From Candidatus Rokuibacteriota bacterium (GTDB lineage: Bacteria; Methylomirabilota; Methylomirabilia; Rokubacteriales; CSP1-6): DNA of 64,000 nt. Both the position numbers and the translations under genes were made by a program. The notes under the pieces were generated by a model that did no database searches, had not been told where the DNA came from, and saw nothing but the letters and a program-made list of their open reading frames with translations. The stretch is taken from positions 1 through 64,000 of the forward strand of contig QHRU01000032.1 in the NCBI GenBank assembly GCA_003220225.1, read 5' to 3'. This document shows, one piece after another, positions 24,038 through 29,682 of the stretch; the first letter of the stretch is position 1, and each line of letters begins with the position of its first letter.

Positions 24038-24043
24038 TACAAT
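24038..24043 (+). promoter_or_regulatory. -10 box TACAAT for the two-repeat protein gene
   Basis: TACAAT lies 24 nt before the proposed CTG start at 24068. The sequence GAGTACAATGGGCGC is identical to the minus-strand -10 region of the pyruvate dehydrogenase operon (53178-53183). Confidence 0.4.
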
Positions 24044-24067
24044 GGGCGCTCCCGGGGAGGGAGCGCC

Positions 24068-24901
24068 CTGCGTACGATCGATCACGGCCCGCGCGGCCGC
24101 ATCGTCATCCTCGACACGATCACGCGCTGCGACGGCAACGCCGGCGCCCGCGACGTCGTGGTGGCCGGCTCGTTCGCCGGGGCCCTTTCGCTCGGCTTCG
24201 CGCTCGAGGTCGGCGTCCGCGGCCTGATCGCCCACGACGCGGGCGTGGGCCGCGACGGCGCCGGCGTCTCCGGGCTGCCGCTGGCCGACCGGCTCGGCGT
24301 GCCGGCGGCGGCCGTGGCCGCGCGCTCGGCGCGCATCGGCGACGGCGAGAGCATCTACGGCGACGGCGTCGTGAGCCACGTCAACGCGCTCGCCGCCGCG
24401 TTGGGCGTTGTCCCCGGCCAGAAGGCGGCCGACGCCGCGCACGCGATGCTCGCCGCGCCGCCCGGCGCAGCCTCGCCCGAGCCCATCGTGGACCGCAGCC
24501 AGCGTGTGGTGCTCGACACCCCCGACGGCCGTATCGTGCTCGTCGACTCGATGCTCTTCGCGTCGCCGGCGAACCACAACGACGTGATGTGCTGCGGCTC
24601 GCACGGCGGCCGCGTGAACATGGCGCGCGCGCTCGAGATCCGGCCGCGCGGCGCGCTCTTCAGCGACGGCGGCGGCGCCCCCGAAGGCTCGGGCGTGAAC
24701 GGCCTGCCGCTGCTCGACGCGGCCGAGGTGGCGGCGGCGACGGTGGACGCGATGCGCGCGCGTATCGGCGACCCGGCCAGCACGTGGGCGGACGGCGTGA
24801 TCTCCGCGGTGAACGACACCGCGCGGCGCGCGCGTGTGGTGGTCGGCCAGCCGGCGGGCACGGCGGCGCGCGCGATGCTCGCGTACAAACGATCATGGTA
24901 G
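24068..24901 (+). CDS. protein of two tandem homologous halves, unknown function (277 aa)
   Basis: I do not recognise the family. Residues 8-128 and 152-271 are clearly related. Both halves run GRIV-L-D, a GS-x2-G segment, HDAG/SDGG, G-x-GV-x-GLPL-x-D, ARIGD-x2-S, GV-x-S-x-VN, and GQ-x-A-x2-AA-x-AML at the end. Coding sequence extends upstream of the first GTG (24158), and a GGAGG Shine-Dalgarno at 24055-24060 points to CTG 24068 as the start. No signal peptide or membrane segment is seen, so it is likely cytosolic. Two cysteines occur only in half two. Its TAG lies in the first tandem repeat. Confidence 0.7.
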   Translation: MRTIDHGPRGRIVILDTITRCDGNAGARDVVVAGSFAGALSLGFALEVGVRGLIAHDAGVGRDGAGVSGLPLADRLGVPAAAVAARSARIGDGESIYGDGVVSHVNALAAALGVVPGQKAADAAHAMLAAPPGAASPEPIVDRSQRVVLDTPDGRIVLVDSMLFASPANHNDVMCCGSHGGRVNMARALEIRPRGALFSDGGGAPEGSGVNGLPLLDAAEVAAATVDAMRARIGDPASTWADGVISAVNDTARRARVVVGQPAGTAARAMLAYKRSW

Positions 24902-25084
24902 TGCGAGTCGCAGGACGCCGTGGGGCTGGGGCCCCACCGTCCGAGACGAGTCTATGGAAAGGTAGTGCGAGTCGCAGGACGTCGTGGGGCTGGGGCCCCA
25001 CCGTCCGAGACGAGTCTATGGAAAGGTAGTGCGAGTCGCAGGACGTCGTGGGGCTGGGGCCCCACCGTCCGAGACGAGCCTATG
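24897..25084 (+). repeat. tandem repeat, 3 units of 64 bp
   Basis: Two full 64-bp units (24897-24960 and 24961-25024) and a 60-bp third unit (25025-25084), differing at only a few bases. Each unit contains the palindrome TGCGAGTCGCA and a hairpin GTGGGGC-TGGG-GCCCCAC with a perfect 7-bp stem. The array starts at the stop codon of the two-repeat protein gene and ends at the Shine-Dalgarno of the next gene. There are no unique spacers, so it is not CRISPR. Confidence 0.9.
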
Positions 25085-25101: not shown

Positions 25102-25986
25102 ATGCCGAAGGCGGCGGTCGGAGGCGTGAAGCTCCACTACGACGAGGTCGGGCACGGCACCCCGCTCGTGTTCGTCCACGAATTCGCCGGCGACGCGCAG
25201 AGCTGGCGCCTGCAGACGGCGTTCTTCGCGCGGCGCTACCGGACGATCGCGTTCAACGCGCGCGGCTATCCGCCGTCCGACGTGCCCGAGGATCCCGGGG
25301 CGTACTCGCAGCAGCAGGCGGCTGACGACATCAAGGGCGTGCTCGACGCGCTCGGCATCGCGAAGGCGCACGTCTGCGGCCTCTCGATGGGCGGCCTGGC
25401 CACGCTGCACTTCGGGCTCTGCTATCCCGACCGCGCGCGCTCGCTCGTCGTCGCCGGCGCGGGCTACGGCAGTGACGACCCCGAGAGCAACCGGAAGGAC
25501 GTCGAGCAGGTGGCCCGCCGGTTCGAGACGGAGGGCATGGAGAAGACCGGCGAGTTCTACGCCCACGGCCCCTCGCGCGTGCAGCTCCTCGAGAAGGATC
25601 CGGTCGGCTGGCAGGAGTTCCGCGATCGGCTCTGTGCCGGCTCGGCCAAGGGCCACGCGCTCACGATGCGCGGGGTGCAGATGCGGCGGCCGACCGTCTA
25701 CTCGCTCGAGGAACGCCTGAAAGCGCTCGAGGTGCCGACGCTGATCGTCACCGGCGACGAGGACGAGCCGTGCCTGGAGCCCGGGCTCTTCATGAAGCGC
25801 AAGATCCCGACCTCCGCGCTGGTCGTCCTGCCCAAGTCCGGCCACGCGGTGAATCTCGAGGAGCCCGAGGCGTTCAATCGCGCGGTGCTCGACTTCCTCA
25901 CCGCCGTGGACGCCGGCCGCTGGACGCGTCGCCGCGCCGACTCGCTGTCGAAGTCCGGGATCCTGCCCGCCGAGTCGCGGCGATGA
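25102..25986 (+). CDS. alpha/beta hydrolase
   Basis: A 294-residue alpha/beta hydrolase: oxyanion region VFVHEFAGD, nucleophile elbow GLSMGGLA, acidic residue in VTGDEDEPC and histidine in SGHAVNLEEPEAFN. The family hydrolyses esters, lactones or C-C bonds. ATG 25102 has a GGGGAGG Shine-Dalgarno created just after the tandem-repeat array. The upstream repeat separates it from the two-repeat protein gene, and no obvious promoter of its own is seen. Confidence 0.9.
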   Translation: MPKAAVGGVKLHYDEVGHGTPLVFVHEFAGDAQSWRLQTAFFARRYRTIAFNARGYPPSDVPEDPGAYSQQQAADDIKGVLDALGIAKAHVCGLSMGGLATLHFGLCYPDRARSLVVAGAGYGSDDPESNRKDVEQVARRFETEGMEKTGEFYAHGPSRVQLLEKDPVGWQEFRDRLCAGSAKGHALTMRGVQMRRPTVYSLEERLKALEVPTLIVTGDEDEPCLEPGLFMKRKIPTSALVVLPKSGHAVNLEEPEAFNRAVLDFLTAVDAGRWTRRRADSLSKSGILPAESRR

Positions 25987-29407: not shown

Positions 29408-29487
29408 GCCGCTCGAGTGACGCGCCCGCCGGCCGGACGTTACGCCGGCGGCTATCCGTCCCGGATGTCGGGGACCGTGCATCCCCA

Positions 29488-29580
29488 CCGAAGCGGAGGC
29501 GGAGCCGGAGCCCTACGACCGAAGCGGAGGCGGAGCCGGAGCCCTACGACCGAAGCGGAGGCGGAGCCGGAGCCCTACGA
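29488..29580 (+). repeat. tandem repeat, 3 perfect units of 31 bp
   Basis: Three identical 31-bp units (29488-29518, 29519-29549, 29550-29580) in the 275-nt gap between cobA and the ATP-grasp gene. The unit is rich in CGGAG and GGAGCCGGAGCC. As 31 is not a multiple of three, it would shift frame each time, so it is not a coding repeat. The rest of the gap (29408-29487, 29581-29682) shows no gene and no clear promoter. Confidence 0.92.
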
Positions 29581-29682
29581 CCGCTGTGGCCGGCCTGTCC
29601 GGTGCGGCTTCACCCGGAATCGCCCGCGGCGGGCGCGTCGCTCATGCTAGCGCCTCCGGCGGCCGGAGAGAAAGGGTCATTG

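Follow-up and report, generated by a model that had tools for sequence, protein, structure and literature searches.

Ribose-binding-type proteins are two-lobed and have arisen by duplication. Other described families and systems serve for comparison with the protein studied here: DUF1805 (PF08827; YunC, TA1206, PDB 1qw2) is a domain of about 100 residues, IMS (PF00817) is the N-terminal domain of Y-family DNA polymerases, and the OiaX/OiaK pathway comprises a 3-oxo-isoapionate-4-phosphate decarboxylase and a kinase. We analysed a 64,000-nucleotide stretch of DNA from a Candidatus Rokuibacteriota bacterium (the window), in which an open frame at 24,068-24,901 codes for a two-domain protein of 277 amino acids, with an apparent CTG start and a TAG stop; the coordinates of the gene, its parts, its upstream elements and its downstream neighbour all refer to the forward strand. 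The gene is present in single copy in the host genome. Sequence comparison places it in a real, previously unnamed family that no Pfam or NCBIfam model covers: searches of Pfam, NCBIfam and PDB sequences with the whole protein and with its halves gave no acceptable match, and in the literature on DUF1805/YunC, 3-oxo-isoapionate and OiaX/OiaK no paper on the two-domain family was found.

The first-pass annotation of this DNA had described two tandem homologous halves sharing an ordered series of motifs. The motif series is present in both halves, and the duplication was borne out by BLAST, by shuffled controls and by profile-profile comparison. The N-terminal half (residues 2-132; 24,071-24,463) was delimited by aligning N against C with hhalign and by conservation of paired columns, and the C-terminal half (residues 145-275; 24,500-24,892) by the half alignment, conservation and the half-domain model; between them lies a linker of residues 133-144 (24,464-24,499). 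The halves are 45% identical over 128 positions (BLAST, E=2e-25) and reach a Smith-Waterman score of 229, whereas 1000 shuffles averaged 37 and never exceeded 67. When profiles of the two halves from 23 relatives were compared, they aligned over 131 columns with a probability of 100 and E=1.2e-42 (hhalign), and the halves are thus homologous at the profile level, as in a tandem two-domain family. When the N and C labels were mapped on a tree of 46 half-domains, 2 changes were required, versus 15.6 after shuffling, which indicates that the duplication is older than the split of the family across actinobacteria, proteobacteria, haloarchaea and the host's own family, in a tree whose deep branches are weakly supported and which leaves a single origin of the duplication unproved. 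Single-domain homologues, a check proposed with the first-pass annotation, were sought and none was found. The only short plasmid match that proved to be a relative, in Halomarina (L048:7013-7285), is a 91-residue remnant of the full gene, decayed and with an internal deletion, located where other haloarchaea carry an intact gene, and a Burkholderia match looks spurious.

An AlphaFold2 model of the half-domain (eight sequences; pLDDT 83, pTM 0.83) consists of alternating strands and helices followed by two terminal helices, and the order of these elements would make it a Rossmann-like alpha/beta domain. The full-length model was moderate (four sequences; pLDDT 73, pTM 0.63); its helix/strand order is identical in both halves with an offset of 142-143 residues, and the pseudo-dimer that had been proposed from the duplicated unit is supported. 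Foldseek searches of PDB with the half and full models returned nothing below E 0.27, and no match below this value was obtained with the half-domain against viral structures. The best match of the half-domain was a lobe of ribose-binding protein (PDB 7qsq; E 0.27, TM 0.32), likewise Rossmann-like alpha/beta but not significant as a match, and an isolated ribose-binding protein lobe was second for the full-length model (E 0.74, again not significant), so that no significant structural match to the type I periplasmic binding protein fold was obtained. The missing PDB match would not prove a new fold, since the model was built on few sequences.

The proposal that translation starts at CTG 24,068 (24,068-24,070), upstream of the first GTG, gained support from the elimination of other NTG codons and from the conserved position. 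Between the in-frame upstream TGA and the conserved core, the window contains no ATG, GTG or TTG, and its sole NTG codon is this CTG. In four orthologues (L005, L006, L007 and L008), the single NTG codon of the same interval is again a CTG located 10 codons before Arg11, and L010 has the CTG at the identical position together with in-frame ATG and GTG codons. Across six aligned orthologues the CTG is invariant, while the surrounding codons vary. Near the corresponding point, a GTG is found in L009 and an ATG in L011-L013, and no CTG start was seen in family members outside the host's family. Two other candidates were discarded. The first GTG (24,158) was excluded because it would cut residues 10-30, which are homologous family-wide and include the invariant Asp16. 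An ATG overlapping the -10-like hexamer TACAAT (24,038-24,043, recognised by inspection only) is, as judged by eye, out of frame in four orthologues, and in differing frames. Hence, from the alignments the two-domain gene appears to begin, in the host's family, at a very rare CTG, a conclusion that we consider well supported. CUG makes up 0.024% of bacterial initiation codons, which renders a conserved CTG start unusual in itself, and its output is 0.86% of that of AUG (PMC11497404). Since CUG is rare and inefficient, its conservation suggests deliberate low expression of the two-domain protein.

A Shine-Dalgarno-like sequence, GGGGAGGGAG, can be read in the window at 24,054-24,063. The GGAGG, 7 nt upstream of the CTG, lies within an inverted repeat with 10-bp perfect arms, GGGCGCTCCC-GGGGA-GGGAGCGCCC (24,044-24,068), which takes in the Shine-Dalgarno sequence and reaches the first base of the CTG. 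Shine-Dalgarno-like GGGAGGGAG or GAAAGGAG occurs in L005, L006, L007 and L010, whereas none is evident upstream of the CTG in L008. In the same four loci a repeat is found at the same place, with letters and loop changed and complementarity kept. The RNA of the repeat folds with -20 to -25 kcal/mol in five loci (z -0.6 to -3.0), two of the five being no better than shuffles, and Rfam gave nothing above a gathering score for the region. As a genome-wide element the repeat was rejected: GGCGCTC-N-GAGCGCC occurs 21 times versus 13 times for the reversed control, and the sequence itself is not special. The -10-like hexamer, at whose place TAAT or TGAT is found in L005, L006, L007 and L010 (inspection only), abuts the inverted repeat, and therefore the transcript may start in the 5' arm; the repeat itself may act as an RNA hairpin or as a DNA operator. 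Other repeats were observed in this part of the window. A palindrome-containing unit of 64 bp, present in 2.9 copies at 24,897-25,084, begins at the last codon of the two-domain gene and supplies its stop codon; BLAST located this unit at 26 places in the genome, which makes it a dispersed repeat family. Further along, an ATP-grasp-like open frame begins with a perfect 31-bp tandem repeat in 3.1 copies (ACCGAAGCGGAGGCGGAGCCGGAGCCCTACG; 29,487-29,583).

Orthologues of the two-domain gene were found in nine other genomes of the host's family, with 53-79% identity, and none in the genomes sampled elsewhere in the host's class. The class of Sinosporangium was sampled evenly, and of the roughly 394 other genomes drawn only 3 matched, one of them weakly. 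Among 72,556 plasmid records, 13 carry a family gene (Rhodococcus, Aminobacter, Rhizobium, Ponticoccus, Methylovirgula and five haloarchaea), which is always called 'hypothetical protein' where annotated, and no family member was found in viral contigs and phages. The distribution of the family is therefore sparse and covers both Bacteria and Archaea. Plasmid relatives such as WP_159928433.1, WP_067968799.1 and WP_012559743.1 share the architecture over most or all of their length, with 31-39% identity to the window protein, while the genes next to the plasmid members (Rhodococcus, Aminobacter, Rhizobium, Ponticoccus, haloarchaea) vary by lineage and are unlike one another. Streptomyces albipurpureus has two family copies accompanied by near-identical cupin genes (L002:13-555 and L003:13-543); both copies are at contig starts, and an assembly effect is possible.

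In the host's family, a PcaD/RutD-like alpha/beta hydrolase (25,102-25,986 in the window) is encoded directly downstream of the two-domain gene in 5 of 10 loci, its relatives being 74-90% identical, and a dienelactone hydrolase gene lies within about 4 kb in 5 of 10. Unlike these neighbours, the two-domain protein has no Pfam match to alpha/beta hydrolases or dienelactone hydrolases. In Sinosporangium and Aminobacter, the cluster contains an MhpA-like hydroxylase (recognised by eye in Sinosporangium), with a dienelactone hydrolase directly downstream, and the Streptomyces cluster combines a cupin, a dienelactone hydrolase, an EutA-like protein and an aldehyde dehydrogenase. Operons with dienelactone hydrolase and aldehyde dehydrogenase in which the EutA-like protein is full-length were seen in L004 (9608-11305) and L002, and in the parts of these two that were read, a gene for ethanolamine ammonia-lyase was not noticed. 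Rhodococcus and another actinobacterium show an AMP-ligase (CoA-ligase), a thiolase and an enoyl-CoA hydratase, and the neighbours in L088 are a thiamine-diphosphate enzyme, an SDR and an amidase (by eye). Haloarchaeal clusters comprise OiaX-like and OiaK-like proteins, an aldolase and a TRAP transporter, the family gene being directly upstream of the OiaX-like (504 bits) and OiaK-like (445 bits) genes; both scores are under the 700-bit equivalog cut-off, and therefore the substrate may differ from that of the OiaX/OiaK pathway. Unlike in the haloarchaea, no such genes adjoin the two-domain gene in the window. In Ponticoccus, no obvious pathway partner was found immediately beside the family gene. 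Thus, almost all loci belong to catabolic clusters, for aromatic ring cleavage, CoA-linked degradation or OiaX/OiaK-like pathways, and there is no one pathway common to all of them; their partner genes are so diverse that it is difficult to propose a substrate for the whole family.

The weighted conservation of paired positions differed between the halves. In the N-half, Asp16 (codon 24,113-24,115) and Ser35 (24,170-24,172) never vary, while the C-half positions paired with them do. The converse holds for His179 (24,602-24,604) and Asp200 (24,665-24,667), which are invariant in the C-half and have variable counterparts in the N-half. The pairs Asn106/Asn249, Ala109/Ala252, Gly66/Gly209 and Gly100/Gly243 do not vary on either side. 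The window protein carries Asp16, Ser35, His179, Asp200, Asn106 and Asn249, and every relative has the same residues wherever its sequence occupies these columns. HDAG/SDGG and ARIGD, put forward earlier as candidate functional sites, do lie in conserved loops, but Asp57 of HDAG varies (D/E/A/N), whereas Asp200, its C-half counterpart, does not. Since conservation is reciprocal and not symmetric, one composite site or two non-equivalent sites fit better than two equal ones, and the pattern of residues is most simply read as specialised halves with one composite site. The two-domain protein would be a soluble alpha/beta (Rossmann-like) protein acting as a pseudo-dimer, whose halves might once have been equivalent and later specialised, with Asp16 and Ser35 of the N-half, His179 and Asp200 of the C-half and the Asn106/Asn249 loops forming a single site. 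Given the catabolic neighbourhoods, its most likely role would be that of an accessory catabolic enzyme, presumably of the isomerase, lyase or hydrolase class, acting on a small intermediate that would be a carboxylic, enol or keto-acid, or a lactone; in the host's family it might work beside the alpha/beta and dienelactone-type hydrolases, at a level that CUG initiation probably holds low. Taken as a whole, this picture of a soluble, internally duplicated Rossmann-like pseudo-dimer with one composite site, a catabolic role and a CUG-limited level is our best explanation, which we hold tentatively. From the first-pass interpretation it retains the duplication, the pseudo-dimer and the CTG start, and it departs from it in not favouring one active site per half.

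An equivalent active site in each half would account for the GS-x-x-G, D-[AG]-G, SAR-[IL]-G-D and G-[VI]-[VI]-S-x-x-N loops retained on both sides, and for the asparagines and glycines that are invariant in both; yet the C-half has nothing conserved opposite Asp16 and Ser35, nor has the N-half opposite His179 and Asp200, and we regard this arrangement as quite unlikely. The main rival to a catabolic enzyme is a protein that binds or carries a small molecule but catalyses nothing, with two lobes in the manner of periplasmic binding proteins, and that is exported in some species. The ribose-binding protein lobe among the foremost, non-significant, Foldseek matches, and the transporters that are often among the neighbours, are consistent with it. 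So are the twin-arginine-like N-termini that can be read in Aminobacter (MNRRIFLGSSALL...AQA; L016:9875-10825) and in one of the two Streptomyces albipurpureus copies (MERRVLLRVAG...; L002:563-1567). Against this, an evident signal peptide is lacking in the protein of the host, in those of haloarchaea and in most of the remaining members, several clusters have TRAP binding proteins of their own, and strictly conserved Ser, His and Asp are more typical of catalysis, all of which makes a binding role unlikely. The two-domain protein probably works as an enzyme, and its halves would share a single site.

Kinship to known families through DUF1805 (YunC/TA1206) or Y-family polymerases is suggested by the Pfam scores of some members: among the 23 members scanned, hits to IMS were obtained for 17 (best E 7e-9) and hits to DUF1805 for 15 (best 1.8e-7), in some cases above gathering score, including the Aminobacter relative for DUF1805 and, through a motif of about 30 residues, L015, L016, L004, L011 and L013 for IMS. 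The best stretches, however, comprise 25-45 residues in all but one case and lie at the helix-G[VI]xxG[MQ]-helix end of the halves, the one terminal element in common with DUF1805, where matches fall mainly on the last 25-38 of the 64 positions of the model. Moreover, these two unrelated families both match one identical stretch. Compared with seven DUF1805 proteins, the profile aligned over 23-32 columns with probabilities of 36-77%, clearly above column-shuffled controls, and homology along the DUF1805 domain was not found; no Rossmann-like first part is shared by profile, and the conserved residues of DUF1805 are others (GYIMCG...). Relatives match about 30-45 residues of the 148-position IMS catalytic domain, of the SYEARxxGVxxGM type, and differ from it in everything else, so that this would be a false family assignment. 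The window protein itself has no DUF1805 match even at E<=10 (cut-off 29.5 bits); for IMS it reaches 11.1 bits, where 23.2 are required. Profile alignment and shuffled controls thus reduce the resemblance to a short shared local motif, and it is highly improbable that the two-domain protein is a divergent relative of either family. As for the start, one might prefer a codon outside the NTG set, for example ATC or ATT two to three positions downstream, or suppose that the gene is untranslated, given how rare CTG starts are (PMC11497404) and the unclear Shine-Dalgarno sequence of L008. Nevertheless, in the six aligned orthologues no codon of the start region other than the CTG is invariant, and the frame is intact in the nine genomes despite their divergence; both suppositions are very unlikely beside initiation at CTG 24,068.

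For the annotation of such genes, the consequences are practical. Standard gene callers, which use ATG, GTG and TTG, would start the gene at GTG 24,158 and lose the first strand together with Asp16, and the IMS and DUF1805 scores are a likely source of mislabelling of some members as Y-family polymerase or DUF1805. The reciprocal conservation singles out four exact residues to mutate. It is conceivable, although rather doubtful, that these proteins are enzymes of a family not yet described, with a fold of pseudo-dimeric alpha/beta type absent from PDB and a site split between Asp16/Ser35 and His179/Asp200, a family which would perform a step common to aromatic, CoA-linked and RuBisCO-like-protein catabolic pathways of bacteria and archaea, and which in the host's family would have a conserved CUG start in a conserved hairpin. 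The presence of the family in several unrelated degradation clusters points to a catabolic step that is so far unassigned.
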